Below, piece by piece: positions 11,820 to 37,317 of a stretch of DNA of 42,475 nt. The position numbers and the translations under genes are program-made. The notes beneath the pieces were generated by a model that saw nothing but the letters and a program-made list of their open reading frames with translations, was not told the origin of the DNA and did no database searches. The DNA comes from an uncultured Thermomicrobiales bacterium (lineage in GTDB: Bacteria > Chloroflexota > Chloroflexia > Thermomicrobiales > UBA6265). Each line of letters starts with the position of its first letter. The stretch's first letter is position 1. Location: the NCBI GenBank assembly GCA_902806405.1, contig CADCWL010000029.1, forward strand, positions 1-42,475, given 5' to 3'.

Positions 11820-12110
11820 GAGGCGCTGGGCGTGGCGGAGGACGCGACGGTCGGGTACGTCTGGCGAGACGTCGCGAACGCCGCTCGCGCTTCGTCGATC
11901 ACCCGGGATCGTTTGGCACCCTCCCGGTCGAGGCGGTCCAGGCGCTCGAGGTCCTCGGCCGAGACGAGGCCGGCCCCGGGGACGCCGGTCTTCTCCACGA
12001 GCACGCGGGCATCGCCCCGGGAAACCCGGCCGACGAGGGCGTCGAGGTTGCCTTCCGCCTCGGCTATCTCCTTCGTCTGGGTTGTCGGTTGGTGCTTACC
12101 TAGGTCCAAC
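11820..12110 (-). pseudogene. Phd/YefM-like antitoxin remnant with a single-base frameshift
   Basis: [67 protein letters not shown] then ATSRQT... in frame 0, but [13 protein letters not shown] in the shifted frame (expected AAFRDVSP); no convincing start; no partner toxin. Confidence 0.6.
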
Positions 12111-12216
12111 GGGACCCGAACACGAAGGGGAGATCGCGGGGTGTGACGGATGCACCGTACCGCACGGGTAAGGGGGCCACCGTTTCCACCGTTCCCCCGC
12201 GTCGGACTGGCGGCCG

Positions 12217-13386
12217 CTACTCGGTGAGGCCCATCTGGCGGGCGATGACGTAGCGGAGAACCTCGCTGGTGCCTTCGCCGATGGTGAGGACCTTGGCGTC
12301 GCGGTAGAAGCGGGGGACGGGGGACTCCTCGATGTAGCCGAAGCCGCCGTGGATCTGGAGGTTCTCCTCGGCGGCGCGGACGGCGAGCTCGGAGGCGAAG
12401 AGTTTGGCGGCCGCGGCCTCCTCGGTGAAGGGTTTGCCGGCCTCCTTCAGCGCCGCCGACCGGTAGGTGAGGAGGCGGGCGGCGGCGATCTGGGTCTTGA
12501 GGTCGGCGAGCTTGAAGTGGATCGCCTGCTGGCGGGCAATCGGGGCGCCGAAGGCGACGCGTACTTGGGCGTATGCGGTCGCCTGTTCGAGCGCGCCCTG
12601 GGCGAGGCCGACCGACATCGCGGCGACGCCGACGCGGCCGCCGTCGAGGCCGGTCAGGAAGACGCGGGCGCCCTTGCCGAGCGGGCCGAGGAGCGCGTCG
12701 TCCGGCACGCGGCAGCCGGCGAAGACGAGCTCGCGGGTGTCGGAGGCGTGCCAGCCGAGCTTGCGGTAGGGCTTCTGCGGCTCGTAGCCGGGGGTGCCGG
12801 TCGGGACGATGAAGGTGCTGAGGGCGGTGCCGCCGTTGCTGCCGGTGCGGGCGGTGGCGATGCAGAAGGCGCTGAGGTCGGTGCCGGCGTTGGTGGTGAA
12901 CGCCTTGGTGCCGTCGAGGACCCAGCCGGTCTCGTCCTCCCCATCGCGGCGGGCGACCGTGGTCGCGGCGCGGACGTCGGAGCCGCCGCCCGGCTCGGTG
13001 CTGGCGAAGGCGCCGAGGGTCTCGCCGCGGGCGAGCGGCACGAGCCAGCGCTGCTTCTGCTCCTCGGTGCCGAAGAGGAGGATCGGCTCGCCGCCGAGCG
13101 AGACGTTGGCGCCGACGGTGACCGCGACGGAAGAGTCGATCCGGGCCAGTTCCTCGATGACGACCGCCTGGGCGACGGCGCCGGCACCGAGGCCGCCGTA
13201 CGCTTCGGGGAAGCCAACGCCCATCGCGCCGAGTTCGCCGAGCTGGCGGATCGTCTCCGTGGGGAAGGTGTGCGTTTGGTCCCACTCGGCGGCGTGGGGG
13301 GCGATCTCGCCCTCGGCGAACTCGCGGATGGTGTCGCGCAGGGCGAGTTGCTCGTCGGAGAGTTCGAAGGAGGGGCAGGAGGTCAT
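12217..13386 (-). CDS. Acyl-CoA dehydrogenase (candidate isovaleryl-CoA dehydrogenase)
   Basis: [31 protein letters not shown]...[14 protein letters not shown]...[40 protein letters not shown]. Confidence 0.92.
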
Positions 13387-13605
13387 CGGCGTCCTCCGGG
13401 GTGTCGGGTCGCGGGCGGCCGCGGCGTCGCGGCCCCTGGCGGGAAGTGTAGCGCCCGGTGGCGAGCCCGCGGAGTAGTTGGGGGAGGCGAGCGGATCCTG
13501 TGGGGCTCGACGGAGCCGGACGACATGCACCCTCCGAGCGTCCCGAGTTGGAAAGCCGCGGGGTCGCGTGGCGACTGAGGGCGGTTTGGCCACGAGGCCG
13601 CGCGG

Positions 13606-13835
13606 CTACGGCGTTTCGGAGGCGTCTGCCCGACCGGTCGCGTTCATCCTGATGTGCAAGATAGGCAGAATGGGGAGGTCAGGCCCTTCATGCGGAAGAC
13701 GACGATGTGGTGACCGATAGGGTGACTTCGGCAGCCGGGACCGATCTCGTTGCGCGCTCGGTCCAACCGGGAAAGGTGCCGATCTCCCGCAAAGCGTCCC
13801 GGATGCGGGCAACGTCGGCACGTGCCCGATCCTCT
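13606..13835 (-). pseudogene. ParE-like toxin remnant, multiply frameshifted
   Basis: Pieces in different minus frames: ADVARIRDALREIG / FPGLDRARNEIGPGCRSHPIGHHIVVFRMKG / [17 protein letters not shown], together resembling a ParE C-terminus. Confidence 0.6.
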
Positions 13836-13910
13836 CCTCGGGTGAGCAAGCCCTGCGGGACGATGCCCTCGTCATCGACCTGGGCGGGGGGAGGGACGAC
13901 GACCGGCAGC

Positions 13911-14189
13911 CTACGGGAGGACCTCAGAGTGCGGGTGCTGGCCCTCCCGCGCCTTCTTCCGAGCAGCTTCGATGATTTCGGCGCGGGGTTCCGGGGCGTG
14001 CTCCCGGCCCTCGCCGCGGCCGAGTTGGTCCTCGCCGGTGGCGAGGGCGGCGTGGAGCCGCTGGAGGTGATCCCGTTCCGAAATCAAGCGTCACGCCTCG
14101 CGGACGACTTCGCCGGCGTTGTTGTAGAGGCCGGTTGCTACCTTCTGCCGGACCATCGCCTCCAGGTGGGAGCTGAAATTCACGTTCAC
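13911..14189 (-). pseudogene. ParD-like antitoxin with in-frame TGA at codon 33
   Basis: GTG start: MNVNFSSHLEAMVRQKVATGLYNNAGEVVREA*RLISERDHLQRLHAALATGEDQLGRGEGREHAPEPRAEIIEAARKKAREGQHPHSEVLP*; TGA (14091-14093) sits where ParD family has L in REALRL. Confidence 0.7.
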
Positions 14190-14485
14190 GCACAGCTCCC
14201 CCCGCACGCGCTGAAGGCAGCAGGGATTGACCCCCTTTGTTGCCGCACGACTCCTCGGGAACCGACGAAGAAGGAACGCGAATCACCCGCGACCGCCTGG
14301 CCGGCGCGGTCCGAGCGGGACATTGCCGTGGTGCGCGGCGGCCAAGGAGGCGGCAGCCGACGGGGGACGGTTTGGCCGGGGGCGGGTCGGAGGGGGTATA
14401 CATTGCCCGACATCCGGGACGGTCGAACGGTTCGGGGGTCGACGATGGGGGCGGTCAACGGCGACCGCCGACAAAGGAGCAGTCG

Positions 14486-15622
14486 ATGGCGACTGAAACC
14501 GGGCCGGCCCCCACGGGGGCGATCCAGGGCGCTTTCCAGGCCGGCGTCGTGCCGCAGGACGGCGCCGCCGCGTTCCGCGCGCCGCTCGACCACGTCGACG
14601 TCGGGGCGGGGACGATCACGGCGAGCGTGGCGCCGGCGTCGGCGGGCGACGGCGGGCTTGACCACGAGACGCTGCGCGAGATGTACCGCTTCGTGGCGCT
14701 GGCGCGGGCGCTCGACGAGCGGATCTGGCAGCTGAACCGGGCGGGGCGGGCGCCGTTCGTCGTCTCCGGGCAGGGGCACGAGGCGGCGCTGGTGGGCGCC
14801 GGTTTCGCGCTCGACCGGGCCAACGACGTGGTCCTGCCCTACTACCGCGACCTGGCGCTCTGCCTGGTCTTCGGCCTCTCGGCGCGCGACGTGATGATGA
14901 GCGTGCTGGCGCGGGCGCCTGACCCGATGTCGGGCGGTCGCCAGATGCCGGCCCACTATGGCTCGGCCCGGCTCCGGATCGTCAGCTCCTCGAGCGTGGT
15001 CGCCTCCCAGTTGCCGCACGCGACCGGCACCGCCTACGCCGCCAAGCTGCGCGGCACGGGCCAGGTCTCCCTCGCCTGCTTCGGCGAGGGGGCCGCGTCC
15101 AAGGGCGACTTCCACGAAGCGTGCAACTTCGCCGGCATCCATCGGCTGCCGGTCGTCTTCTTCTGCGAGAACAACCGCTACGCGATCTCGGTCCCGCAGA
15201 GTCTCCAGATGGCGATCGACAACGTCGCCGACCGCGCCGCCGGGTACGGCTTCCCCGGCGTCGTCGTCGACGGGACCGACCTGCTCGCCGTCCACCGGGC
15301 GGTGGGGGAGGCCGCCGCGCGGGCGCGCCGCGGCGAGGGACCGACGCTGGTCGAGGCGAAGGTCTACCGCTTCCACCCGCACACCTCCGACGACGACGAC
15401 CGCACCTACCGCAGCCAGGACGAGGTCAAGGCGTGGCGGGCGTGGGACCCGCTGGCCCGCTTCGAGGCGCGGCTGCGCGAGGTCGGCGCCCTCGACGACC
15501 GGACACGCGCCGAGATCGCGGCCGGCGTCGCGGCCGAGGTCGAGGCGGCGACCGACGCGGCGGAGGCGGCGCCCTTCCCCGACCCCGCCACCTTCGATCG
15601 CTACGTCTACGACGGGGGCTAG
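14486..15622 (+). CDS. 2-oxoacid (probably branched-chain) dehydrogenase E1 alpha subunit
   Basis: REMYRFVALARALDERIWQLNRAGRAPFVVSGQGHEAALVGAGFAL...GEGAASKGDFHEACNFAGIHRLPVVFFCENNRYAISVP; RBS AAAGGAG. Confidence 0.9.
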   Translation: MATETGPAPTGAIQGAFQAGVVPQDGAAAFRAPLDHVDVGAGTITASVAPASAGDGGLDHETLREMYRFVALARALDERIWQLNRAGRAPFVVSGQGHEAALVGAGFALDRANDVVLPYYRDLALCLVFGLSARDVMMSVLARAPDPMSGGRQMPAHYGSARLRIVSSSSVVASQLPHATGTAYAAKLRGTGQVSLACFGEGAASKGDFHEACNFAGIHRLPVVFFCENNRYAISVPQSLQMAIDNVADRAAGYGFPGVVVDGTDLLAVHRAVGEAAARARRGEGPTLVEAKVYRFHPHTSDDDDRTYRSQDEVKAWRAWDPLARFEARLREVGALDDRTRAEIAAGVAAEVEAATDAAEAAPFPDPATFDRYVYDGG

Positions 15623-15695
15623 GGGCTGGGGGTGGGGCGGCCGGCCCGACCCGGCTCGGTCGCGCTGGTCGGACCCGGGCGGAGGGAGGACTTCG

Positions 15696-16742
15696 ATGGT
15701 ACAGGCTCCGGAGCGGCCGGCGGTGGCGCGGCCGGCGGGCGACGCCGAGGCGGACGAGGCGCCGCAGCGGTCGTTCATCGAGGCGATCCACGACACGCTG
15801 CACGAGGAGATGCGGGCGGACGAGCGGATCGTGGTGCTCGGGGAGGACGTGGGGCGCCGCGGCGGCGTCTTTCGGGTGACGGAGGGGCTGCTGGCCGAGT
15901 TCGGCGAGGGACGGGTGATCGACACCCCGCTCGCCGAGTCGGGGATCATCGGCAGCGCGATCGGGATGGCGCTGAACGGGTTGCGGCCGGTGGCCGAGAT
16001 CCAGTTTCTCGATTTCATCCACTCGGCGATGGACCAGCTGATGAACGAGGCTGCGCGGCTCCGCTACCGCTCGAACAACGACGTCTGCTGCCCCCTCGTC
16101 GTCCGCGTCCCCTTCGGCGGGGGAGTCCACGGCGCCCTCTACCACTCGCAGAGCATCGAGGCGGTCTTCGTCCACACCCCGGGCCTGAAGGTCGTCGCTC
16201 CCGCCACGCCGGCCGATGCTCGTGGGTTGCTCCGCGCCGCGATCCGCGACGACGACCCGGTGCTGTTTCTGGAGCACAAGCGGATGTACCGCCTGATCAA
16301 GGGGTCGGTGCCGCCCGGGCCGCACGAGGTGCCGCTCGGCCGGGCACGGGTGGCGCGGGAGGGGAGCGACGCGACGATCGTGACGTACGGCTTCATGGTC
16401 CACGAGGCGGAGAAGGCGGCGGCGGCGGCGGCGGAGCGCGGGGCGAGCGTCGAGGTGATCGACCTCCGGTCGCTCAAGCCGCTGGACGAGGCGGCGGTGA
16501 TCGCTTCGGCCAAGAAGACGGGCAAGGCGCTCGTCGTCGCCGAGGCGAACCGGCCCTGCTCGGTCGCGAGCGAGGTGGCGGCCCTGATCGCGGAGGAGGC
16601 GTTCGCCTACCTCGACGCGCCGGTGATGCGGGTGGCCGGGCCGGACGTGCCGGCGATGCCCTTCAGCCCGCCCTTGGAGAAGGCGTTCCTGGTCGACGCC
16701 GAGAAGATCGGCGCCGCGCTGGGGCGGCTGCTGGCGTACTAG
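15696..16742 (+). CDS. 2-oxoacid (probably branched-chain) dehydrogenase E1 beta subunit
   Basis: SFIEAIHDTLHEEMRADERIVVLGEDVGRRGGVFRVTEGLLAEFGEGRVIDTPLAESGIIGSAIGMAL; RBS GGAGGGAGG. Confidence 0.93.
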   Translation: MVQAPERPAVARPAGDAEADEAPQRSFIEAIHDTLHEEMRADERIVVLGEDVGRRGGVFRVTEGLLAEFGEGRVIDTPLAESGIIGSAIGMALNGLRPVAEIQFLDFIHSAMDQLMNEAARLRYRSNNDVCCPLVVRVPFGGGVHGALYHSQSIEAVFVHTPGLKVVAPATPADARGLLRAAIRDDDPVLFLEHKRMYRLIKGSVPPGPHEVPLGRARVAREGSDATIVTYGFMVHEAEKAAAAAAERGASVEVIDLRSLKPLDEAAVIASAKKTGKALVVAEANRPCSVASEVAALIAEEAFAYLDAPVMRVAGPDVPAMPFSPPLEKAFLVDAEKIGAALGRLLAY

Positions 16743-16752
16743 CTATGACCTA

Positions 16753-16943
16753 TGAGCGGTCAGCCAGGGGTGGGCAGCGTTCTGCCTCGGCGCTTTCCCG
16801 TCATCCCGAAGCACGAGGGATCTCTGCTGGGCGGCGTAGCGGTGGGGAGACCCCTCCTTCGTGGGGATGACGCGGCTCGGGGGCTTGCGAGGGCGGGTGA
16901 CCTGGTCGTGGCTCATCGCGGGTCGCTCGTGGCTGACCGCTCA
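16753..16943 (+). repeat. Nested inverted-repeat element (MITE/REP-like) between E1 beta and E2 genes
   Basis: Outer perfect 14-nt inverted repeat TGAGCGGTCAGCCA (16753-16766) / TGGCTGACCGCTCA (16930-16943); inner imperfect inverted repeat GTCATCCCGAAGCACGAGGGATCTC ... GGAGACCCCTCCTTCGTGGGGATGAC. Confidence 0.6.
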
Positions 16944-16994
16944 CGGCTGACGGATGACCGCACATGGCTCATCGCTCACCGCTCGGAGGCTGGC

Positions 16995-18443
16995 ATGGCG
17001 ACGGGGACGGCGACGACGATCACGATGCCGCAGCTCGGGGAGAGCGTGACGGAGGGGACGATCGGGGCCTGGCTGAAGCGGGTCGGCGAGCCGGTCGGCA
17101 AGTACGAGGCGTTGGTCGAGGTTGTGACCGACAAGGTGAACGCGGAGGTGCCGTCGCCGGTCGCCGGCGTTCTCGCCGAGATCCTGGTCGAGCCCGAGAC
17201 GACGGTGCCGGTCGGGGCCGTGCTCTGCCGGATCGAGGAGGCGGGCGCCGGGGCGCCCTCCACGGCGGTGGCCGGGGCGGCGCCGGCGCCGGCGATGGGA
17301 GGCGACGGGGACGTGGCCGACGGCGGCCGGGCGCCATTTGGCTCGCCCACGGCCACGGTTCGGCGGCGGGGCGAGATCGCGGACGAGATGGAGTTGCTGC
17401 GCGTCCGTTCGTCGCCGGCGGTGCGGCGCATCGCGGAGGAGCACGGGATTGAGATCGCGCGGATCGGGGGGACCGGCATCGGCGGTCGGGTGACGAAGCA
17501 GGACCTCGTCGCCCACCTCGCCGTGACCCCGGACGCGCCCGAGGCACGCGCCGTCCCGGGGGCGGGTGCCGCGGCCCCGCTCCCGGCACCGGCAGTCGAC
17601 GCGGGCGCGGCCTCCACGCCGCCGGTCGTGGCGGTCCGTGAAGGGGTGGGGCCCGCTCCCGCGGCCGAGGTGATCCCCGTCCCGCCGCCGGCGCTCGAGC
17701 CCGGGACGGAATCCGTCGGGGGGCGGACGCGAGCGGCGGTCCTTCCCGGCGACGAGGTCGTTCCGGTCACGCCGATGCGGCGGACCATTGCCGAGAACAC
17801 GGTCCGCTCGGAGCGGACGGCGCCGCACGCGACGGTCGTCATGGAGGTCGACATGACCCGCGTCGTCGCCTTCCGGGCGGCCCAGAAGGAGGCGTTTCGG
17901 CGGCGGGAGGGGATCGAACTGACCTTTCTGCCGTTCGCGATCAAGGCGGCGACGCTGGCGCTGCGGGATCACCCGCGGCTCAACGCCGTCTGGGACGGGG
18001 ACCGGATCATCCACCGCGCGGCGATCAACGTCGGCGTTGCCGTGGCGCTGGATGACGGGTTGATCGTGCCGGTGATCCGGAACGCCGACCGGCTGAGCGT
18101 GGCCGGGCTGATGCACGCCGTGGCCGACCTGGCGGCGCGCGCCCGCGACGGCGGGCTGACGCCGGACGACGTCGCCGGCGGCACCTTCACCGTCAACAAC
18201 CCGGGCAGCTTCGGCTCGCTCGTCTCGACGCCGATCCTGGTCCAACCGCAGGCGGCGATCCTCTCGACCGAGGCGATCGTGAAGCGGCCGATGGTGGTCG
18301 ACGACATGATCGCCGTCCGCTCGATGATGAACCTCTCGCTCACCATCGACCACCGCGTCCTCGACGGCCTCGCCGCCGCCCGCTTCCTGCAGGCGGTCAA
18401 GGGGTGGCTGGAGGCGGCGGACGGGGCGCTGTCGGTGTACTAA
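16995..18443 (+). CDS. Dihydrolipoamide acyltransferase (E2) of 2-oxoacid dehydrogenase
   Basis: Lipoyl domain ITMPQLGESVTEGTIGAWLKRVGEPVGKYEALVEVVTDKVNAEVPSP; peripheral-subunit-binding domain VRSSPAVRRIAEEHGIEIARIGGTGIGGRVTKQDL; catalytic LTIDHRVLDG. Confidence 0.94.
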   Translation: MATGTATTITMPQLGESVTEGTIGAWLKRVGEPVGKYEALVEVVTDKVNAEVPSPVAGVLAEILVEPETTVPVGAVLCRIEEAGAGAPSTAVAGAAPAPAMGGDGDVADGGRAPFGSPTATVRRRGEIADEMELLRVRSSPAVRRIAEEHGIEIARIGGTGIGGRVTKQDLVAHLAVTPDAPEARAVPGAGAAAPLPAPAVDAGAASTPPVVAVREGVGPAPAAEVIPVPPPALEPGTESVGGRTRAAVLPGDEVVPVTPMRRTIAENTVRSERTAPHATVVMEVDMTRVVAFRAAQKEAFRRREGIELTFLPFAIKAATLALRDHPRLNAVWDGDRIIHRAAINVGVAVALDDGLIVPVIRNADRLSVAGLMHAVADLAARARDGGLTPDDVAGGTFTVNNPGSFGSLVSTPILVQPQAAILSTEAIVKRPMVVDDMIAVRSMMNLSLTIDHRVLDGLAAARFLQAVKGWLEAADGALSVY

Positions 18444-18459
18444 CGGCTTTCGCACCTCG

Positions 18460-19623
18460 TCACCGTTCGACCAGCCACCACGCCTCGGCGAACTGGCGGA
18501 CCGCAGCCTCGTCGACGGCGACCCCGAGGCCCGGCCGGTCGGGCGGGGTGATCCGGTCCCGGTGGTACCAGGAGGCGGCGTCGGCGACGTCGGCGGCAAG
18601 CATCAAGGGACCGCCCATCTCGACGGTGAGGACGTTGGCGAGGGCGAGGGCGAGGTGGAGGCCGGCGGCGGAGGCGACGGAGCTCTCGACCATGGTGCCG
18701 ACCTGGGCACCGATGCCGGCGGTCTCGGCGACGGCGTTGAGGGCGAGGGCGGGCCCCAGGCCGCCGCACTTCATGAGCTTGATGTTGACGAGGTCGGCGG
18801 CGCGGAGGGTGGCGACGCGTGACATTTCCCGGGGCGAGCGGCAGCCTTCGTCGACCATGATCGTGGCGCCGGTCTGGCGGCGGACCTCGGCGAGACCCTC
18901 GAGATCCCAGGCGGCGACGGGCTGCTCGATGTAGGCGGGGCGGATGGGGGCGCAGGCGCGGATGGCGGCGATGGCGACGCCGGGGGTGCGCCAGCCCTGG
19001 TTGGCGTCGACCTTGATCGCGACGTCCGGGCCGACGGCTTCCCGGACCGCGGCCAGGCGGCGGGCGTCCAGGGCCGGGTCGTCGGGGTCGCCGAGCTTGA
19101 CCTTGACGGTGGCGAAGCCGGCGGCGACGTGGCGTGCGGCGGCGGCGGCCATCGTTGCCGGGTCGGCGAGGCCGACGACGCGGGAGATGGTGAGGTGGGG
19201 TTTGCCGCGGCCGCCGAGGAGGACCCAGAGGGGGACGCCGAGGGCGCGGGCGAGGATGTCGTGGAGGGCGATGTCGAGGGCGGCCTTGGCGGCGGGGGCG
19301 CCTTCGAGGCGGGCGTCGAGGGCGCGGCGGGCGCCGTCCCGGTCGCGGGCGTCCCGGCCGAGGAGGGCGGGGGCGAGGGTGTGGCGGAGGATCGCGGCGA
19401 CGCCTTCGTAGGTCTCGCCGGTGACGTTGGGGTCGGGCGTGGCCTCGCCCCAGCCGAGGGCGCCGCCGGTCGTCGTGACCCGGACCAGCACCGTCGGCAC
19501 GTCGGGGTAGGTCGCGTAGGCGATCGCGAACGGCTCACGCAGCGGCAGGCGGACGGGGACGACCTCGACGGAGGCAATGGTTAGGGGGGCGGACGCGGTC
19601 GCCGGCGGCACGGGCGTGCTCAC
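18460..19623 (-). CDS. Mandelate racemase/muconate lactonizing enzyme family protein (dipeptide-epimerase-like)
   Basis: FATVKVKLGDPDD, AIKVDANQGW, YIEQPVAAWDLEGLAEVRRQTGATIMVDE, LVNIKLMKCGGL; GTG start overlaps the stop of the upstream gene (GTGA). Confidence 0.85.
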   Translation of the reverse strand: MSTPVPPATASAPLTIASVEVVPVRLPLREPFAIAYATYPDVPTVLVRVTTTGGALGWGEATPDPNVTGETYEGVAAILRHTLAPALLGRDARDRDGARRALDARLEGAPAAKAALDIALHDILARALGVPLWVLLGGRGKPHLTISRVVGLADPATMAAAAARHVAAGFATVKVKLGDPDDPALDARRLAAVREAVGPDVAIKVDANQGWRTPGVAIAAIRACAPIRPAYIEQPVAAWDLEGLAEVRRQTGATIMVDEGCRSPREMSRVATLRAADLVNIKLMKCGGLGPALALNAVAETAGIGAQVGTMVESSVASAAGLHLALALANVLTVEMGGPLMLAADVADAASWYHRDRITPPDRPGLGVAVDEAAVRQFAEAWWLVER

Positions 19624-25000: not shown

Positions 25001-25372
25001 GTGGGCGACCCGAACCGTTTCCATCCGGCGGCGGTGACCCCGGTCGGCAACGCGGCGAAGCACCGCCCGGCCCGGCCGTGCTTGGGCCCGACCTGCCGCG
25101 TCGCCGACAGCGACCTTGTGGGAGCGGTGGTGACCGCCCGTCCTGGCGTCCCGCCGGAGGATCTGCCGCCGATCGTTGGCCGCTTCTCTCGGGTCGGCCG
25201 GCGGCGGAAGCGGACGAAGGGGGGGCTCGATCTACCGATCGCCAGGGCGCACGGCTGCCGGATCGGGCGGGGGGCCGCGTCGGCGATCCGGCTCCCCCCG
25301 CGTGCGCCCGCGGCCGAACCGGAGGCGGCGGCGATCGCGACGGCGACGCTTCCGCTCCGAAAGGAACCCTAG
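25001..25372 (+). pseudogene. Histidine kinase HATPase-domain remnant
   Basis: DPNRFHPAAVTPVGNAAKHRPA (N-box-like) and GVPPEDLPPIVGRFSRVGRRRKRTKGGLDLPIARAHGCRIGRGAASAIRLPP (degenerate G1/F/G2 boxes); no kinase N-terminus upstream. Confidence 0.6.
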
Positions 25373-26511
25373 CTGCGGAGCACGGCGTCGAGCGCGCCGC
25401 AGAGGGCGGCGAGGGGGGCGTAGGCGGCGCCGCCGGGGCGGAGGTCGGCGGCGGGGGCGCGGGCCAGGGTTTGGGCCAGGGCCAGCACCTCCGCGCGGAG
25501 GCGGTCGGCATCGTAGGGCGGGGCGCCGGCGGCATCGGCGGCGCGGGTGAGCGCCTGGCGGTCGGCGCGGGCGCCGACGGCGGCCGCTGCGAGGGCGGCG
25601 AGGAGGGGTGCCGCCGCCGCCGGATCCCCGCCGTCGGTCGCGGCGCGGGGCGGAGCTGTCGCCTCCCCGGCGCGGAACCCCGCGAGGGCCGTCGCGGCGG
25701 CGGCCTCGTCGTCGGGGAGGTGGGCGTCGCGAAGGGCACGGGCGAGGCGCATCGCCTCCTCGGCCGGCAGCTCCTCGGCCACGATCGCCGCCCGCAGCGC
25801 CTCCTGCTGGCCGGGGGGGAGACCCTGGAGGGCGCGGCTCTGCTTCTCGCTGAGGCGGCCGGCGCGGATGTCGTCCCGGGCGGCGTCCGGCAGCTTCTCC
25901 GTACCGAGGAGCTGGAAGAGGCGGCTGCGGCGGACGCCGACCGCCTCGGCGACTGCCTCCCAGGGGGCGTCGTCGAGCTGGACCTTGAGCGCGCGCAGGG
26001 CGGCGGCGCGGTCGACGGCGTTCAGGTCGTCGCGGACGATGTTCTCCATGAGCTGCTGGATCAGCCGCCGCTCCTGCGGCACCTCCCGCACGATCGCCGG
26101 GATCGCCGCCAGGCCGGCGGCACGTGCGGCGCGCCAGCGGCGCTCGCCGTGGAGGACGACGTAGACGTCGCGCCCGGCGTCGTAGCGGACGGCGATCGGC
26201 TGGAGCACCCCCTCGCGGCCGATGCTGGCGGCCAGCTCCGCCAGCTTCGCCTCGTCGAAGGTGCGCCGGGGCTGGTCCGGGTCCCCTTCGATCCGGTCGA
26301 GCCGGATCTCCTTCGCGTCCGGGAGGTCGCCGACGCCGACGGCCTGGGGCCGGCCGTCGGCGAAGAGGGCGTCGACGGTGAAGCGGCGGCGGCCTTTGGC
26401 GGCGGCCCCCCGACCCGCGATCCTGGCGGGAGCCAGCACGTCGTCGTCGGCTCCCCCCAGGATCGGGGCCCCGCTCTCGGGGCGGGGGGAGGCCGTCTCC
26501 GTCCTAGGCAT
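25369..26511 (-). CDS. parB: ParB/RepB/Spo0J-family partition protein
   Basis: IRLDRIEGDPDQPRRTFDEAKLAELAASIGREGVLQPIAVRYD...VLHGERRWRAARAAGLAAIPAIVRE...QLMENIVRDDLNAVDRA. Confidence 0.93.
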   Translation of the reverse strand: MPRTETASPRPESGAPILGGADDDVLAPARIAGRGAAAKGRRRFTVDALFADGRPQAVGVGDLPDAKEIRLDRIEGDPDQPRRTFDEAKLAELAASIGREGVLQPIAVRYDAGRDVYVVLHGERRWRAARAAGLAAIPAIVREVPQERRLIQQLMENIVRDDLNAVDRAAALRALKVQLDDAPWEAVAEAVGVRRSRLFQLLGTEKLPDAARDDIRAGRLSEKQSRALQGLPPGQQEALRAAIVAEELPAEEAMRLARALRDAHLPDDEAAAATALAGFRAGEATAPPRAATDGGDPAAAAPLLAALAAAAVGARADRQALTRAADAAGAPPYDADRLRAEVLALAQTLARAPAADLRPGGAAYAPLAALCGALDAVLRS

Positions 26512-27346
26512 GGAGCGGGGTCCTCTCGGCGGTGGCCGCGGCGGCGGCGGTCGCGACCGGGTCGTTCGTCTCGAGCCAGGCGCCGACCTCGCGGTAGGCG
26601 GCGGCGACGGCGGAGCGGGGCATGTACTGGAGGATGCTGGTGCGCTCCGCGGCCGACTCGGCGCCCTTGACGGAGAGGGGGACGGCGGGCAGCAGCGCCA
26701 TCTCGGGGAACTCCTCGGCGAGGGTCGCCAGCATGTCGGCGGCGAGGCGGGAGGAGTGGTGGACCTTGGTCGGGAGGAAGCCGACGACCCGCAGCTCCGG
26801 GTTGAGGCGGCGGATGCGGTGGACCGTCTCGAAGAGGCGGCGGAGCACCATCAGCGAGAGGGGGTGGGGCTCGATCGGGACGACCAGTTCGTCGGCGGCG
26901 ACCAGGATGTTGACGGAAAGGACGTTGAGGGCCGGCGGCGAGTCGATCAGAACGTAGTCGTAGGGGGCAAGGTCGGCGGCGCCGAGCCGGTAGTCGAGCT
27001 GGCGCTCCCGCTCCAGGACGTTGAGCAGTTCCAGCTCGGCGGCGGCGAGATCGGGATGGGAGGGGACGAGGGTGACGCCGGGGATCGTGGTCGGGGTGGC
27101 GACATCGGCGATACCGAGGCCGTCCTCGAGGAGCAGGTCGTAGATCGAGCGGTCGAGGCCGGCGACGTCGACGCCGATCGCCATCGTCAGGCTGGCCTGC
27201 GGGTCCATGTCGAGGGCGAGGACGCGGCGACCGCGCTCGGCGAGGGCGGCGGCGACGTTGAGGGTGCTGGTGGTCTTGGCGGTGCCGCCTTTCTGATTGA
27301 AGAAGGCGACGACGCGGGTGGGGGAGGTGCGGGTGCTGCGGGCCAT
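26504..27346 (-). CDS. parA: ParA-family ATPase
   Basis: VVAFFNQKGGTAKTTSTLNVAAALAERGRRVLALDMDPQASLTMAIG deviant Walker A; YDYVLIDSPPAL Walker B; overlaps parB start. Confidence 0.93.
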   Translation of the reverse strand: MARSTRTSPTRVVAFFNQKGGTAKTTSTLNVAAALAERGRRVLALDMDPQASLTMAIGVDVAGLDRSIYDLLLEDGLGIADVATPTTIPGVTLVPSHPDLAAAELELLNVLERERQLDYRLGAADLAPYDYVLIDSPPALNVLSVNILVAADELVVPIEPHPLSLMVLRRLFETVHRIRRLNPELRVVGFLPTKVHHSSRLAADMLATLAEEFPEMALLPAVPLSVKGAESAAERTSILQYMPRSAVAAAYREVGAWLETNDPVATAAAAATAERTPLHA

Positions 27347-27559
27347 CGGTGGGGTGCCCCCATGCTGCCGGATGCGCTCCGCCCCGAGGGCGGCGACGCG
27401 GCGCGGGCGCGTCGGCTCCGCGGCGGAGAGTGTACGTACGGCTACCGAGGAGGATACCACGGGGGTGACGACGAGGCAAGGGATGCGCGGTGATGGCGCG
27501 AGGGGGCCGGCCGGCTTCGCGATGCGGGTCGACGGGGAGCGGGTCTCCTGGGCCGAGCG

Positions 27560-27715
27560 GTCGAGGCCGCGGGGGACGTGCCGGATGTCGATCCCGACCG
27601 GCTGCCCGGCCGCGTTGAGGGCGAGGACGACGCCGGCGCCGACCTCCCGGGCGTCGGCGCCGGGGCGACCGTTGAGGTCGATGGAGAGGGGGTCGGTGTT
27701 GGGGTCGGAGGGAAG
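27560..27715 (-). pseudogene. DUF2283-like remnant
   Basis: SDPNTDPLSIDLNGRPGADAREVGAGVVLALNAAGQPVGIDIRHVPRGLDRSAQE resembles the DUF2283 core (DPETDxLxI...G.VLxxDxxGxxVGI.I); no good start codon. Confidence 0.5.
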
Positions 27716-27861
27716 CGTCGTGGGTGCCCTGTGTCTCCGTTTCGGCGATGCTACGCGCAAGGAGGACACCCCAGCGGCGATGCGGAGACGGCGGGGTGCG
27801 CCCGGGCACGGGCATCCTGTCCGGTGGGTGGACTCGTGGGGAACGCTGCGGTGGCTGTCGG

Positions 27862-28085
27862 ATGAACAAGCGCGGGCTCTCCGACCGGGTGCGCAACAGC
27901 CCGCGCGAGGCGCGGTACTCCGACTCCCAGGTGCTGGTCGAGGCGGTCGGCTCGACACGCCAAGGCACACGGGGACGCCATCGGGTCTACCGGCATCCCT
28001 CCGCTCCCGAGCGCCTCAACGCAGCCGGGTAAGAACGACAAGGCCAAGGAGTGTCAGGCCGCGCCGTTCCTGGACGTGATCCACG
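27862..28085 (+). pseudogene. HicA-like toxin, frameshifted
   Basis: MNKRGLSDRVRNSPREARYSDSQVLVEAVGSTRQGTRGRHRVYRHPSAPERLN then a shift to frame QPGKNDKAKECQAAPFLDVIHA. Confidence 0.65.
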
Positions 28086-28103
28086 CTCGAGACCCGCGGC
28101 GGG

Positions 28104-28371
28104 AGGATGGATCGCGAAGGACGATTGCCCCATCGTCATCTTCTTCTGGGGCGAAGGGGACGAGGTGTACATTGCGGACGTTCGCGACCTCCGCTATTGG
28201 TCGGCCCACGGCGAGATGCCCGAGGAGGCGCTGCGGGAGATCCTGATCGCGTGGGAGCCCTGGCTGAAGGTGGCCCACGAGGACGGCCTGTCCCTCCCTG
28301 ATCCGAGCGCGTTCGGGGCCCTGCCCGCGCCCGCCCGGAAGGCGGCGCCGATCACGGTCGACGCCGCCTAG
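28104..28371 (+). pseudogene. HicB-like antitoxin, apparently frameshifted near its N-terminus
   Basis: ATGGATCGCGAAGGACGA after GGGAGG gives MDREGR; shifted by one base the frame continues CPIVIFFWGEGDEVYIADVRDLRYWSAHGEMPEEALREILIAWEPWLKVAHEDGLSLPDPSA, a clear HicB domain. Confidence 0.7.
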
Positions 28372-28391
28372 GCTCCGACCCCCCCGGAAGT

Positions 28392-28928: not shown

Positions 28929-28961
28929 TCGGACACTATTCTAGGAAGAAGGGGACGCGTG

Positions 28962-29897: not shown

Positions 29898-30163
29898 GCC
29901 CGGGTGCCGTCATTGGGGGCGTCGGTGCAGCTCCTCGCGACGCCGGCCCGGCGCGGGGCCGGTGCCGAGGCAATCCCGACCCCGCGCCGAACCTGCCACC
30001 CCCACCGCCGGTCGAGATGGTCGCCTGGCGCGGCGCTCTTCGGCGGCGCTTCGAGGTCGGTTCGGCCGTTCGGGACGACCGAACCGGTGTCTCCACCGCC
30101 GCCGCCGGCGCGGCCACGTCGTACGACGGATGAGACAGCGAGCGGCGGGAAGGAGGACCGACG

Positions 30164-30817
30164 ATGATCGATGAGATCGACGGCGAGGTCGGCGGCGGCG
30201 AGGCGGAGCGGTTCTGGGAGAGGCACTACACGGGGCGCGAACAGGTCTGGAGCGGGAACGCGAACGCGGTCCTCGTCGACGTCGTCGGGTCCCTGCCGCC
30301 GGGGACGGCGCTGGACCTCGGCTGCGGCGAAGGGGGGGACGCGATCTGGTTGGCCGGGCGCGGCTGGCGCGTGACCGCGGTCGACGTCTCCGCCACGGCC
30401 CTTGGGCGGGGGGCGGCCGCCGCGGTGGCGGCCGGAGTCGGGGACCGGATCGATTTCCAGCGGCACGACCTGGCCGAAAGCATTCCCGATGGCCCCTTCG
30501 ATCTGGTCTCCGCCCAGTACCTGCAGTCGCCGGTGGATTTCCCCCGCGAGCGCGTCTTGCGGGTGGCGGCGAGCGCGGTGGCGCCCGGCGGCCTCCTGCT
30601 GATCGTCGCCCACGCCTCGGTCGCGCCCTGGTCGTGGGACCAGGACCCGCATCGGCGCTTCCCCACCCCGGAGGAGGAGCTTGGCGCGCTCGACCTGAGC
30701 CCCGAACGTTGGAGCACCGAACGGCTCGGCACTCCCGCGCGTCGGGCCGTTGGCCCGAGCGGGGAAGCCGCCACCGTTCGGGACAACGTGATCGCTGTCA
30801 GACGCCTTCCCCGGTAA
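30164..30817 (+). CDS. Class I SAM-dependent methyltransferase
   Basis: GTALDLGCGEGGDAIWLAGRGWRVTAVDVSATAL; RBS AAGGAGG. Confidence 0.88.
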   Translation: MIDEIDGEVGGGEAERFWERHYTGREQVWSGNANAVLVDVVGSLPPGTALDLGCGEGGDAIWLAGRGWRVTAVDVSATALGRGAAAAVAAGVGDRIDFQRHDLAESIPDGPFDLVSAQYLQSPVDFPRERVLRVAASAVAPGGLLLIVAHASVAPWSWDQDPHRRFPTPEEELGALDLSPERWSTERLGTPARRAVGPSGEAATVRDNVIAVRRLPR

Positions 30818-31080
30818 CGCCCCCGTCCACTCCCCGACCGTCGCTACGACGTCGACCGCGACACTCGCCGCGGCGACGGGCGACTCTGCCGCCGCCGCGG
30901 ACGGCGCTGTAACGGAGTCATCCGCCGCCGAGGGCGACTCGGGAGTGGCCGATTCCGCGCGGGGGGCTGGGCCCGGCCGCCGACGCCGCGTGGACACCGG
31001 CGGTCGTGCTCGACGCCTCGATCGTGGAAATCGACCTGCGGGGCGCGGACCGATCCGGTCCCGCGGACGCGGTCGCCGGG

Positions 31081-31420
31081 GAGAAGCCCGGGCGCCGCTG
31101 CGCTGGGATGGTCGTGGCGTGCGTCGACCCGGATCGTCCGGCGGAGGACGGCGAGGAACGGCGGCGCGCGATCGGCGCCGCTCCTCGCCCGCTCAGGACG
31201 GTGGTCTTCACCGACCGCGGCGATACCCGGCGCATCGTCTCCACGCGGAGGGCCAGAGACGAGGAGCGGGACCGATACGACCGGGGCGGTCCGGCTACCC
31301 GACGGAACCGCGATCCTCACCCCGATCGACGGCACTTAGCGGCCTGTCACGGACCCGACGGGCTGGGCGCGGGTCGACGCCCCGACCGGGACGACATCGG
31401 GGCCAACGCCGCGAGGGTCC
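31081..31420 (+). pseudogene. BrnT-like toxin remnant followed by degenerate antitoxin-like sequence
   Basis: VDPDRPAEDGEERRRAIGAAPRPLRTVVFTDRGDTRRIVSTRRARDEERDRYDRG resembles the BrnT C-terminus; an overlapping frame reads GAVRLPDGTAILTPIDGT*RPVTDPTGWARVDAPTG. Confidence 0.5.
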
Positions 31421-31770
31421 GGGATAGGCCGCCGATGACGTCGATGCGCTCGCGCGGACGCGACCCCTGCCGAGCCCGACGGCGGTGCGGTAGCACCTGC
31501 GCTCGTCCGAAGAGGCGGTTTGCTGCCAGTTCCGGAACCCTCCCGGCGCGCTCCGAGGCTGGGAGCAGGGGGTTGGCGGCCTCGACCGTGTCGCCCTGAC
31601 GCTGCTGCGCGGGATCGGTCCCGATCCCGCGGCCCGGTCGGAGGCGCACGCGCGTAAGCGCCCGTGCGGGCTGGGACGCGGCCCTCGTCTTCGGTCGGTC
31701 GTGCTTGGGCTTCGGGTTGACCATTGGGATGGTCGTGGCTGGGCGCAGCTGGCGCGAGAATCCGCTTCCA

Positions 31771-32176
31771 TCAGGACCGCATCTGCCCCGCGACGAAGCC
31801 GGCGAGCTCGCCGAAGACGGCTGCAGCCGCGTGTCCGGTAGAAGTTCGGCGCCTGGAAGGAGACGGTGTCGAGGTGGGCGCGCGCGCAGCCGCGGCGGGC
31901 CGCCTCCGCCTCGGCGGCTGCCAGCAACCGCCCGCCGTGCCCCTGGCCCCGGAGGTCCTCGCGGCCCCGCAGGACGTCGACGCGGAGCAAGTCCCGTTTC
32001 GCGTCGCCGCCGAGGCCGGCCAGGTCGCCGTTTGGGTCGCGTAGGAGGAGCGTTAGCGGCCAATGGCCGTCGTCGCCGCCGAGGCGGCGGTCGAAGGCGG
32101 CCAGCTCCCGGCCGATCACTGCGACGTCGGCGCGGTCGGGCGCGTCGGTCAGTCTCGTCTGATGCTCCGCGTCCAT
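31771..32176 (-). pseudogene. GNAT acetyltransferase with C-terminal frameshift
   Basis: VREDLRGQGHGGRLL-type motif (here GREDLRGQGHGGRLLAAAEAEAARRGCARAHLDTVSFQAPNFYRTRG) then AVFGELAGFVAGQMRS* only in the shifted frame. Confidence 0.6.
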
Positions 32177-32207
32177 CGTTCCCCGAGACCAACCCTGCGG
32201 TCGACGT

Positions 32208-32951
32208 TCAATACCGGCGGTGATAGAGGGCGTAGTGGTAGTCAACGCTCGTGCCGGGATGCTCCATCAGGATCGTCGCTGCCAGGTCGGGCGGGAACTC
32301 GAGGCGGACCACCGCGTCCAAATCCTCACGGCGCTCGAAGCGCCACTCGCTCGCGATCCGCGTCAGGTCGAAGCCGCGGCCGGCCCAGAAGCCCTCGATC
32401 TCGTCGGGGTCGGCGTTGGCCCAGTCGGGACTGCGGCGCAGCCAGGAGGCGAACGTGCCGGTGCGGAGGTCGTTGTCGATCATGAAGGCGGCGCCGCAAG
32501 GCCGGATCACGCGCGCCAGCTCGGCGAGGCCCGGCTCGCAACCGGGGCCAAAGAAGTAGGCGAAGCGGGCGTGGACGACGTCGATGCTGGCGTCGGGGAG
32601 GAGGAGGCGCTCGGCGGAGCCGGTCGTGACGGAGACGCGCTCCAGGCCGAGGGCGGCAACGCGGGCCATCGCCCGGACGCGAGATGGGCCGTGGGGCTCG
32701 ACGGCGATCACGTGGGCCGCCGTCTCGTGGAAGCGGGGGAGGTGGTAGCCGGTGCCGGCCCCGAGGTCGAGGAGGACCTTGCCGTCCCAGGGGGCGGCGG
32801 CGGCCATCGCGGCCTCGATCTTCCCGCCGGGGTCAACGGCCCGGTTCTCGCGCTCGTACACGTCGGGTGCCTTCTGGATGTTGGGGGATGGGTGGACGCC
32901 GGGGAGGGCGAGCGTCGGTGGCTCGCTCCCGCCGGAATGGTTCGATGCCAC
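32208..32951 (-). CDS. Class I SAM-dependent methyltransferase
   Basis: GKVLLDLGAGTGYHLPRFHETAAHVIAVEPHGPS; ASIDVVHARFAYFFGPG. Confidence 0.85.
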   Translation of the reverse strand: MASNHSGGSEPPTLALPGVHPSPNIQKAPDVYERENRAVDPGGKIEAAMAAAAPWDGKVLLDLGAGTGYHLPRFHETAAHVIAVEPHGPSRVRAMARVAALGLERVSVTTGSAERLLLPDASIDVVHARFAYFFGPGCEPGLAELARVIRPCGAAFMIDNDLRTGTFASWLRRSPDWANADPDEIEGFWAGRGFDLTRIASEWRFERREDLDAVVRLEFPPDLAATILMEHPGTSVDYHYALYHRRY

Positions 32952-33018
32952 GGGTCGCTCCTCCTGCCGATTGCCGTGACGCCGGGCGCCGGCCGCGATG
33001 GCGCCTTTCCGGCCGTTT

Positions 33019-33870
33019 CTACCCGGCGCCGACCGAGGTCAAGAAATCCAGCACGAGCCGGTTGAACGCGGCCGGGCGCTCCATGTTCGGGACGTGGGCG
33101 GCGTCGGGGATGACCGCTTTGCGGGCGCCGGGGACGCCAGTCGACAGGAGGTCGCCGCCAGCGAGCACGTCCGGTTGGTCCTCGGCGCCGACGATGACGA
33201 AGGTTGGGGCGCGGATCGCGCCGAGACGCCCGACGGCCGGCGGATCGGGCGGCCGCGGCTCCCCCTGGTCGGGGAGGGCGAAGAGGGCGGCGTCCATCTC
33301 CCGGACCCGCTCGCGGACGGTGGGGTCGACTTGGTCGGGCGTGCGGTTTGGGCCATCGACCCACATCCGCAGCTCCAGCTCGACCGCGCCGGCCACATCG
33401 CCGGCGGCGAGCGCCACGTCGACCGCTTCCCAGGCGCTGCGCAGCGCCCGCGACGGGACGAGGCCGCTCGGCCGGGCGCCGGCGACGACGAGGCCGGCGA
33501 CCAGATCCGGGTAGGCCAGCGCCGCGTCGACGGCGACGGTGCCGCCCATCGAGAGGCCGACGAGGTGCGCCCGCGACACGCCGAGGATGGCGAGGAGGGC
33601 GGCGAGATCGGCGATGGGAGAAAAGCCGCCCGTCGCCGGCCCGGAGCGGCCGAAGCCGCGGGCGTCGTAGCGGATCACCGGGAAGCGTTGCGCGAAGGGG
33701 GCGACCTGGTCGTCCCACATCCGGGCGTCGCCGATGCCCGCGTGGAGGAGGACGATCGGGGGCGCCGCGCCGAGCGAACCCGTGACCTCGTACCAGAGGT
33801 TCGCACCGTCGACCTCGGCGCTGCCGGTTGGACCGGCAGCGCTCGCTTGGACGAGGGCAGCGTCGCGCAT
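33019..33870 (-). CDS. Alpha/beta hydrolase
   Basis: PIVLLHAGIGDARMWDDQ; VIRYDARGFGRSG; LVGLSMGGTVAVDAAL. Confidence 0.9.
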   Translation of the reverse strand: MRDAALVQASAAGPTGSAEVDGANLWYEVTGSLGAAPPIVLLHAGIGDARMWDDQVAPFAQRFPVIRYDARGFGRSGPATGGFSPIADLAALLAILGVSRAHLVGLSMGGTVAVDAALAYPDLVAGLVVAGARPSGLVPSRALRSAWEAVDVALAAGDVAGAVELELRMWVDGPNRTPDQVDPTVRERVREMDAALFALPDQGEPRPPDPPAVGRLGAIRAPTFVIVGAEDQPDVLAGGDLLSTGVPGARKAVIPDAAHVPNMERPAAFNRLVLDFLTSVGAG

Positions 33871-33880
33871 TGGGGGCTCC

Positions 33881-34342
33881 TTATCGGGGCTGCTCGAGAC
33901 GCATCCGGACGCCCGTGGTCGCAAAGCTCTCGTTGCCTTCGAGCTTGCCGGTGACGCTCTCGACCACGGCGAACCCCTCGCTCTCGTAGAGGGCGATGGC
34001 CGGCGCGTTCGCGCCGAGCGCCTCGGTCGTCACCACCGGACCGCAGCGCTCGACGGCGCGCCGGAGCAGCCGCCGACCGATGCCGCGCCGGTACATGTCC
34101 GGGTCGACGTACAGCCAGGTCACTTCGTCGTCCGCGACGGCCACGAATCCGAGCACGCGGTCGGCATCGCACGCCACCCACAGCTCCCCGTCGAACAGCC
34201 CCTCCGGCCCGGCCGTGTCGGTCAACGGGAGGAATGCGGCCAGATCGACCGACCCTCGCAGTTCGTCCAGGCGAGCGCGGTCGTGGATTTCGCACAGGCG
34301 CTCCCAGTCCGCATCGAGGTACCGACGGATGGTGACGGACAT
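33881..34342 (-). CDS. GNAT N-acetyltransferase
   Basis: VTWLYVDPDMYRRGIGRRLLRRAVERCG...ALYESEGF. Confidence 0.88.
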   Translation of the reverse strand: MSVTIRRYLDADWERLCEIHDRARLDELRGSVDLAAFLPLTDTAGPEGLFDGELWVACDADRVLGFVAVADDEVTWLYVDPDMYRRGIGRRLLRRAVERCGPVVTTEALGANAPAIALYESEGFAVVESVTGKLEGNESFATTGVRMRLEQPR

Positions 34343-34472
34343 CGTGATGCTCCAGCGGGGGACCGATCGGGGGCTGTTCGCAACCCCTGATCGACCGGTC
34401 GTGACGGCGGCGGCTCGACTTCATCCCGACGGCGGTCTCGGCGGGGTGGCGGGATTGGCAACAACCCGGACC

Positions 34473-34506
34473 GCGCGGGCGGCCCCGCCGATGGGGCCGC
34501 CCGCGC
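34473..34506 (-). terminator. Terminator-like hairpin downstream of the 34550-35017 ORF
   Basis: GCGCGGGCGGCCCC...GGGGCCGCCCGCGC palindrome; weak T tract. Confidence 0.5.
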
Positions 34507-34549
34507 AGTCGGTCGGTGCGACATCCGATGGCATCGGCGGGCCGATGCC

Positions 34550-35017
34550 TCAGCGCACGGCGCCGAGGGTGCCGACGCCGGGGAGGGCGTCGGCGGGGCG
34601 ACCGGCCCCGCCGCCCTGGAGGCGCTGGCCGGCGCGGACCAGCGCGCTCCCGATGCCGTGCCGCAGGGCGGCGATGGCGGCGGCGATGCCGACGCGGCGA
34701 GGGGTGGTCCGCCGCGGCGCCAGGGCCAGACGACGCTCCTGCGCGGCCTCGGCCAACAGGTCGCGGCGGCGCGACTCGGCGTGGATCTGGGGCAAGCCCG
34801 GCCCCTGGTGGACGGTGTACATGGCGGTCTGCTCCTTGGCGGCGGACCCGAAGGCCCGTCGGGTGGTCATTGGCGTCGCGGCCGGATCGTGCCCGGCGCG
34901 GTGGGTGCCCGAGGCGGGCGGGACGAGACGAAGGTGCATGGCGTGGTCGGCTCCTGTGGTGGGTCGGCGGATGGGCGTCGGCAACAGCCGAAGGTGCGGT
35001 CGGTCGCGGGTGGGCAT
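34550..35017 (-). CDS. Small hypothetical ORF (155 aa) with nested in-frame starts at 34939 and 34822
   Basis: GGGAGGTGACCCG-ATG very strong SD; nested MYTVHQGPGLPQIHAESRRRDLLAEAAQERR with AAGGAG upstream. Confidence 0.5.
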   Translation of the reverse strand: MPTRDRPHLRLLPTPIRRPTTGADHAMHLRLVPPASGTHRAGHDPAATPMTTRRAFGSAAKEQTAMYTVHQGPGLPQIHAESRRRDLLAEAAQERRLALAPRRTTPRRVGIAAAIAALRHGIGSALVRAGQRLQGGGAGRPADALPGVGTLGAVR

Positions 35018-35141
35018 CGGGTCACCTCCCTCCGCGGGCGCGGTCTGGTTGGGGCCGCGCAGTGGCGGCCGTCGTCGTGGTCGGCGGGCCCGTGCTCCCT
35101 GCCGGCGTGGGGAGGACGGGGGGCGCGACCGGAAAATGGGC

Positions 35142-35175
35142 AAAAAGAACCCCGGGTCGGTTGCCGACCCGGGGG
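35142..35175 (-). terminator. Intrinsic terminator after the 30-aa ORF
   Basis: On the minus strand CCCCGGGTCGG-CAA-CCGACCCGGGG-TTCTTTTT. Confidence 0.85.
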
Positions 35176-35213
35176 AAGAGGCTGCGGTCTGCGCGGCGCG
35201 GACGCCAAAGGCG

Positions 35214-35306
35214 TCACGTACGGCAGGCGAGCTCCTCCCGCGGGCAGGCGGGGACGAGGCGGAGATCGGAACCGAAACCGATCCAGCGCTGGGTCAGCAT
35301 GACCAT
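35214..35306 (-). CDS. Putative 30-aa peptide
   Basis: AAAGGAGGGACGACG-ATG; MVMLTQRWIGFGSDLRLVPACPREELACRT*; lies between a predicted promoter and a terminator. Confidence 0.5.
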   Translation of the reverse strand: MVMLTQRWIGFGSDLRLVPACPREELACRT

Positions 35307-35485
35307 CGTCGTCCCTCCTTTCCCGGTGTGGTGTGCGTCCATCGCCATCGGGGTGATCCCGTCGCTCTCTCGCCGCGTTCGGCCGCCCGTTGCCCGTCGT
35401 GGGCCGCGCCCGCCGGCGCGTGGTGAAGGGCGACCTCAAGGCTCAACCCGCGGGGCAACCGCGCTCGCGGCCCGCCCTGCCCTCT

Positions 35486-35514
35486 TTATTTATCACCGAG
35501 ATGTCCTCGTGTCA
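35486..35514 (-). promoter_or_regulatory. Near-consensus sigma70 promoter with extended -10
   Basis: Minus strand TTGACA (35509-35514) - 17 nt - TAAATA (35486-35491), preceded by TGA (extended -10-like), in an AT-rich island. Confidence 0.65.
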
Positions 35515-35655
35515 ATAGGTTCGGGGGCGCCGCCGCCGCCGTTCGCGACCCCGATGCGCGGGACGCGCTCGCTTTCCAAGGCGAGACCCTCCAGCGTTCT
35601 CGACTCATACGACGCCAGAGAAGCCTGCGCGTGGCTGTCACGCGCCGAGGTTCCG

Positions 35656-36447
35656 CTAGCTGAAGCGGGGTGTCCGGCCGAAGACCCGCGCCATCTTGCC
35701 GCAGCCGAGGGTGGAGGCGCCGCCGTCGTGGTCCGGCGTGACGATGTTGCCCGCGGCGTGGCGCTCCGCCATCAGATCACGCAGCCTCCGGTCGGCGCTG
35801 GTGTCGGCGGCGGCGGCGAGGGACGATCTCGCGGCCGAGTGTGTCTCCCACCAGCGCCGCGAGGAAGGCGCCGCCGAGGTCGCGGGCGTCGACGTCGCTC
35901 CAGAAATTGTCCGGGCCGGCGCGGCGCTCGGTGAGGACGCGCCGCCGTCCGCGGGGATGACGTTGCTGGGGCGCTACCCGGCGAAGGTGGTCGCCGGGTA
36001 GCGGACGGCAAGCGAGTCGGCGACCACCTCGGCCCGGTACCTGATGAGGGCGTAGACGGTCGGCGGGGGGTGTCGCTCCGCCTCGTCGACGGGGATGCGG
36101 CCCGGCAGGATACCGGTGAGGAGGCCGGTCGCCATCTCGCTCGAGGCGGCGACGACCCGCCGCGCGTCGGGATCACCGGCGGCCGGCATAACGCCGCAGG
36201 CGCTCTCGACGTTGCTGTCGAAGACGGTGAGCCGGGCTCGGCGGGAGGGGTGGGGGTTGGCCGCGAGGTGACAGACGCCTACGGCGCCGGACTGGCAAAA
36301 GGCGTCGTCGACGGCGTCGGCGTCTGCGTCGGCGAGGGCATCGCGGCAGAAGTCGCCGGGCGGGCGCAGATCCGCCGCGGGCGGGACCGCGTCGACGGTG
36401 ACCACCTGGGGCCCCGCGGCCGCGACCGCCCGCGCCACCTCGCTCAC
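35656..36447 (-). pseudogene. NAD-dependent epimerase/dehydratase, degraded
   Basis: GAVGVCHLAANPHPSRRARLTVFDSNVESACGV...TVYALIRYRAEVVADSLAVRYPATTFAG*RPSNVIPADGG; then frameshift to RAGPDNFWSDVDARDLGGAFLAALVGDTLGREIV and again to AAADTSADRRLRDLMAERHAAG...GRTPRFS*. Confidence 0.7.
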
Positions 36448-36683
36448 GGCCTAACCCAGGCCCCCGCTCGCCATCACGCGCATCGTCGCCCCCCCTTTGC
36501 GTCCTCGCCGCTCCTCCCGTGGCTTCTCCGCGTCGTCATGCGGGCTTTGACGGCAGGCCCGTCGGTTCGCCCGCGGCCCGGGCCCCGGCGGCCTCGGTTT
36601 CCCGCCTCGGTGGAAGCCGCAGGATGACAGGGGCAGTCCGGGGGGGCGTGTTGGTGGAGTTGGGCAAGGGGAAGTACCGTGCG

Positions 36684-37090
36684 CTACCGGTCCCGATTGG
36701 GATCCACGAACGGTCGCAGACCGAGGATGCGCGAGAAGTGACGCCGGTTGCGGGTCACGAGGGCGAGATCGTGGGCCAGGGCGCTTGCGCCCATGAGGTG
36801 GTCGGGGTCCGGGAGGAGCCGGCCCTACCGCTGGAGAAGGGCCCGCACCCGTCCGAACGCTGCCATCGTCGAGTCTGAAATCTCGCACGGTGTATCCGTT
36901 CAGGAACCCCCAAATGGCTGCCGGTGCGGCGACGGGGTCCGACGAACGATGTGTCCCGTCGTCGGGTTCGCCCATGGTGACGATGCCGACCGCCAAGCCG
37001 TCCCGGCGAAGGTTCCGGTGGAGGTTGCCGGCGCCGGGGGCAAGCGCCAGGGCGTCGATGACGACCGCGGTGTCGACCCAGGTATCTCAC
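36684..37090 (-). pseudogene. VapC-like PIN-domain toxin with at least two frameshifts and a nonsense codon
   Basis: GTG AGA TAC CTG (extra G) then [37 protein letters not shown]; shifted [58 protein letters not shown]. Confidence 0.75.
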
Positions 37091-37317
37091 GACTCGTCGT
37101 CGAGCGGCCCGGTTCCCTCCTCCCGACCTCGGGAGATGCAGACTTTCAGCTCCTCGGCGTCGAGGGCCGTCCACGCTCCCGCCGCGGCCCGCATTCCCGC
37201 ATGCGCCCGCTCCGGGTCGTACCCCGCCCGGATGTCGTCCTCGTCGTCTTCGCGGCGGAACCGGAGACCCTCCCCGCCGCGCACCAATCGCAGCGGCGCT
37301 CCCGCCGCTCCCTCCAT
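37087..37317 (-). CDS. VapB-like antitoxin, partner of the decayed VapC (start uncertain)
   Basis: [68 protein letters not shown]; stop overlaps the vapC-like GTG start (GTGA). Confidence 0.5.

Follow-up and report, generated by a model that had tools for sequence, protein, structure and literature searches.

Mycobacterium leprae is an obligate host-associated bacterium marked by wholesale gene decay. No toxin-antitoxin (TA) loci were detected in this species (PMC2374986), and in mycobacteria pseudogene TA loci are found at similar or different positions while relatives keep coding copies (PMC2781298). The DNA analysed here, contig C29 (42,475 bases, hereafter the window) of the draft genome G000 (4.6 Mb, 266 contigs, about 91% complete), resembles the mycobacteria, M. 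leprae included, in having decayed TA loci whose counterparts in relatives are still coding. It differs from M. leprae, with its wholesale gene decay, in a coding density like that of a relative and in the presence of several families within 25 kb. The relatives used for comparison were Thermomicrobiales metagenome assemblies, Thermomicrobium roseum and similar genomes. Among genomes of the same family (G004, G005, G006 and G014), chromosomal Phd/VapC, ParDE, HicAB, BrnTA and VapBC modules belong to the same TA families as those in the window, at best about 46–62% identical, but they are intact where those of the window are broken, and two of the intact ones occupy gaps orthologous to relic sites. 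Decayed TA modules as such are already known; the point of interest lies in the contrast inside one bacterial family, without general gene decay.

Broken TA modules in the window

Six-frame translations of the region from 11.5 to 37.9 kb, with X in place of stops, were scanned against Pfam. Apart from enzymes, which were expected, the scan recovered four TA-type families (Phd/YefM, ParD, DUF2283 and BrnT). HicAB and VapBC were first suspected from the gap sequence and then confirmed by homology to proteins of relatives. When intact proteins from relatives in the family served as tblastn queries, the two partners of HicAB, BrnTA, VapBC and ParDE were each matched, in several frames. For the homology searches the relic peptides were trimmed and composition-corrected and run with reversed-sequence controls, which gave no match at E ≤ 0.001; matches from untrimmed relic frames without composition correction were GC-driven floods of false hits and were discarded. 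Two panel entries were left uncounted, L113 (really acyl-CoA dehydrogenase sequence) and L198 (a dubious BrnT). Scanning of the window with Rfam and for tRNAs found nothing.

Five type II TA modules were recognisable, all of them broken, in about 25 kb among intact metabolic genes (Table 1). The graveyard of different decayed modules proposed by the first-pass annotation is thereby confirmed; of the up to six modules it had counted, Phd, ParDE, HicAB, BrnTA and VapBC were recovered by profiles or tblastn, while DUF2283 stays tentative. For four modules (HicAB, BrnTA, VapBC and ParDE) both partners could be recovered, out of frame and adjoining uninterrupted genes. Several independent lesions were observed per module, namely a lost start, stops, a spread over two or three frames and replaced conserved residues. 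Homologues of the window modules were intact in genomes of the same family.

Table 1. TA relics and associated genes in the window.
Feature	Coordinates	Strand	State or evidence
Phd module	11873–12103	-	broken; toxin not found
Phd/YefM antitoxin relic	11873–12103	-	Pfam PF02604; relatives' Phd
Acyl-CoA dehydrogenase, intact	12217–13434	-	Pfam; flanked by Phd and ParDE relics
ParDE module	13624–14189	-	broken
ParE toxin relic	13624–13843	-	colinear pieces in three reading frames, directly downstream of ParD
ParD antitoxin relic	13914–14189	-	PF03693, TIGR02606, ParD of G004
parA and parB, intact	25369–27358	-	Pfam; orthologues in relatives and on the T. roseum megaplasmid
Possible DUF2283 relic (tentative sixth module)	27578–27706	-	just upstream of parA; Pfam PF10049
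HicAB module	27901–28308	+	broken
HicA toxin relic	27901–28081	+	split across two frames
HicB antitoxin relic	28120–28308	+	open frame kept
BrnTA module	31003–31655	+	broken
BrnT toxin relic	31003–31287	+	decayed in its N-terminal half, still recognisable in the C-terminal half
BrnT partner (BrnA-type antitoxin) relic	31223–31655	+	two frames, with stops
VapBC module	36714–37353	-	broken
VapC (PIN) toxin relic	36714–37080	-	N-terminal and C-terminal halves in different frames
VapB-type antitoxin relic	37099–37353	-	E 1.5e-7 to the VapC-partner ORF of L060 (G017)

The Phd/YefM relic matched PF02604 at 11933–12076 below the curated cut-off (E 7e-4 in the window scan, 1.9e-5 in the genome search) and was 55–60% identical to the intact Phd of G005, G006 and G020. 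Its frame is open, with CTA where intact relatives have the start codon and a decayed 3' end. No toxin partner was detected between 11300 and 11870 with the relatives' neighbouring ORFs as queries; that the relic once belonged to a module is what we infer. A duplicated gene end was sought beside it and none was found. ParD exceeded the cut-offs of both Pfam (PF03693 at 14028–14180, E 1.9e-5) and NCBIfam (TIGR02606, E 8.7e-15, 54.5 bits against 46.2), and was 48–57% identical to the intact ParD of G004, with an in-frame TGA after 'VVREA'. ParE was recovered by tblastn with lineage ParE proteins as pieces at 13843–13769, 13757–13683 and 13686–13624, the best of which scored 27.3 bits against a maximum of 26.2 among 1500 random stretches; its match to Pfam PF05016 was weak. 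With the TGA in ParD and ParE spread over three frames, ParDE lacks two intact open frames.

The order HicA then HicB is retained, with HicA broken and the HicB motif lost. HicA was matched in two colinear tblastn pieces (E 1.3e-4) by the ORF in the HicA position of L038 (G009). HicB, which is weakly UPF0150-like, was 55–62% identical to its intact counterparts in G017 and G009 (lowest E 5e-18) and carries RDLRYW in place of the conserved PDLPGC core. BrnTA likewise keeps the order BrnT then antitoxin and lacks intact frames. The BrnT match at 31129–31267 covered profile positions 33–77 of 77 (PF04365, E 5.8e-6, below cut-off), and the relic was 52% identical to the intact BrnT of G012; its partner aligned in two colinear pieces with the 160-aa partner ORF of L203 (G006) at E 3e-14. 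In VapBC a PIN-domain VapC sequence is present and intact VapB and VapC frames are absent, the VapC relic bearing an in-frame TAG or other stop and a frame change. Its C-terminus matched the NCBIfam tRNA(fMet)-specific VapC (E 1.3e-10, below the full-length cut-off), and identity was 57% to the intact VapC of G019 (L061) and 46% to that of G004 (L009). NCBIfam recognised ParD (above cut-off) and the VapC C-terminus independently. The DUF2283 call comes from a single match below the curated score (PF10049, E 4.6e-3, 17.6 bits against 23) and is a tentative one; NCBIfam gave nothing, and a lineage homologue was absent among the fetched loci.

Orthologous sites and TA content of related genomes

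Orthologues of the acyl-CoA dehydrogenase, 78–85% identical, were present in G004, G010, G014, G018 and G020 and served as anchor, so that the gaps on either side could be aligned in relatives. In G004 an intact VapB-VapC pair occupies the upstream gap, the site of ParDE in the window; in the downstream gap, the Phd relic corresponds to an intact Phd-PIN pair in G014. TA genes were absent from these gaps in G018 and G020. At these sites the intact modules of G004 and G014 are different from those of the window. Between parA and the hydrolase, the loci L330 and L331 of relatives have 1.6–2.2 kb and no TA match; the window has about 5.7 kb there, with DUF2283, HicAB, BrnTA and several genes in addition. 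These comparisons fit modules being gained and lost in series at intergenic sites that tolerate them. The repeated acquisition and loss suggested by the first-pass annotation is upheld by the different families involved and by the dehydrogenase gaps, which hold different modules or none in relatives. The other possibility raised there, a region in which modules are tolerated only once inactivated, is not supported, as almost all TA copies inspected in the rest of G000 are dead too and orthologous gaps of relatives hold intact modules.

Two further observations were made in relatives. In G014 a fragment with 88% identity to the acyl-CoA dehydrogenase lies at the contig end (L025, 1–78), beyond the intact Phd-PIN pair; it is possibly a trace of the insertion event or of a paralogue. 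Tandem TA arrays also occur, with three ParE in 1.9 kb (L033, G004:C54) and four BrnT in 2.4 kb (G001:C268).

The window is enriched in TA traces. At E ≤ 0.001, four TA places were found in its 42 kb against one in 878 kb of unselected sample and none in reversed sequence. The panel for this density held entries from Pfam searches alone, with one contaminated entry removed, and twelve stretches sampled because they held TA matches were excluded. The chance of at least four of the five places falling in the window is about 2e-5, or about 0.002 when some 109 windows are allowed for, figures to be taken as a guide only since the window was picked for this feature.

A genome-wide census was made for five Pfam families (PIN, Phd, ParE, HicB and BrnT). 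G000 gave 3 PIN, 1 Phd, 1 ParE, 6 HicB and 1 BrnT; only two of the PIN matches exceeded the curated cut-off, and the sole Phd and BrnT matches were the window relics themselves. The corresponding counts were 39, 17, 6, 1 and 4 in G005, 23, 11, 6, 6 and 4 in G006, and 3, 2, 0, 0 and 2 in G007, at the low end of the same-family range. Frame breaks, stops or lost conserved residues were seen in G000 copies on C3, C58, C75, C78, C108, C113, C205 and C247, the inspection outside the window covering most of the traces. One PIN protein, on C132, has an open frame and looks solitary. With that exception, the matches in the five families were decayed or below cut-off, and G000 seems almost devoid of living TA genes in these families. 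An intact Phd-PIN pair was present in a 263-kb sample of the close relative G018. The TA graveyard is genome-wide in G000, and the window is only its densest known part. Simple coding density was 0.74 in G000; the values for G018 and for other Thermomicrobia stretches were 0.75 and 0.76. General gene decay was rejected on this ground, and the decay of TA genes is thus not part of a general gene collapse.

Origin of the relics

The relics are very probably pseudogenes of several unrelated type II TA modules that were inserted repeatedly and decayed once the toxin had been lost, in a lineage that has seen its TA repertoire collapse. Each module would have entered a gap between intact operons separately, the modules coming and going singly. 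The toxin was probably lost first, since loss of the antitoxin first would poison the cell; the antitoxin, then without function, would have drifted unselected. The HicAB, ParDE and VapBC toxins are broken and that of Phd was not found, and the frames of HicB and Phd are still open, which agrees with this order. The setting would be a lineage stripped of nearly all living TA modules of the tested families.

Errors of assembly or sequencing in genes that are intact in the organism might be suspected in a fragmented draft of 266 contigs, but this explanation is barely credible. Low sequence quality fails to account for the lesions, since none of the 16 genes neighbouring the relics contains an internal stop; the first-pass annotation had argued likewise from the open enzyme genes. 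Each module, moreover, bears several independent lesions, and many contigs carry broken copies of the same families. Pooled third-codon GC was 0.85 in the relics against 0.92 in the genes, an erosion which consensus errors would not produce and which counts against sequence error, although the gap could also stem from other reasons for a differing composition of TA genes. The open HicB and Phd frames, with their toxins broken or missing, also raise the idea that some remnants are kept as anti-addiction antitoxins against incoming plasmid toxins. This is very unlikely, given the CTA at the start position of Phd, the lost core motif of HicB, the in-frame stop in ParD and the broken state of VapB and the BrnT partner.

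A somewhat better case, though still an unlikely one, can be made for the relics having once served as stability modules on a secondary replicon (chromid), near whose par locus the window would lie; they would have become dispensable once the replicon itself was indispensable. TA modules are what one would expect on a second replicon, and the window may be part of one: the ParB of the window has orthologues on the T. roseum megaplasmid and on the second contig of the two-contig genome G038, whose other ParB lies on the first. TA traces are, moreover, denser in the window than in the sampled contigs. Against this, the best DNA match of the acyl-CoA dehydrogenase in G038 is on the first contig, the T. 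roseum megaplasmid around parAB has little else in common with the window, and the window carries trpA/trpB and chorismate mutase. Relics are also found on many other contigs of G000.

Beyond the decay of separately inserted modules, G000 might represent a free-living, non-reduced bacterium in which the type II TA repertoire is extinct as a class, leaving fossils, while other genes are maintained and members of the family keep dozens of living modules; we regard this wider reading as possible but rather doubtful. If this is true, the lineage would provide a natural test case for the importance of TA modules to the bacteria that carry them, a long-standing question being whether chromosomal modules serve the cell or merely persist. 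A lineage with nearly all modules dead, set beside TA-rich genomes of the same family with identifiable insertion sites, would allow a natural comparison of gain, order of inactivation and rate of decay. TA censuses based on annotated genes overlook this history kept in intergenic DNA.

Minor features

Besides a ParB of the window type, most relatives carry a second, different ParB. Upstream of the conserved start of ParA, the parA frame remains open for about 204 codons (27359–27970), across the DUF2283 trace; this long ORF is probably an accident of high GC. At 35974–36465 an Epimerase-family frame covers only profile positions 11–176 of 240 and ends early, and it is possibly another truncated gene.
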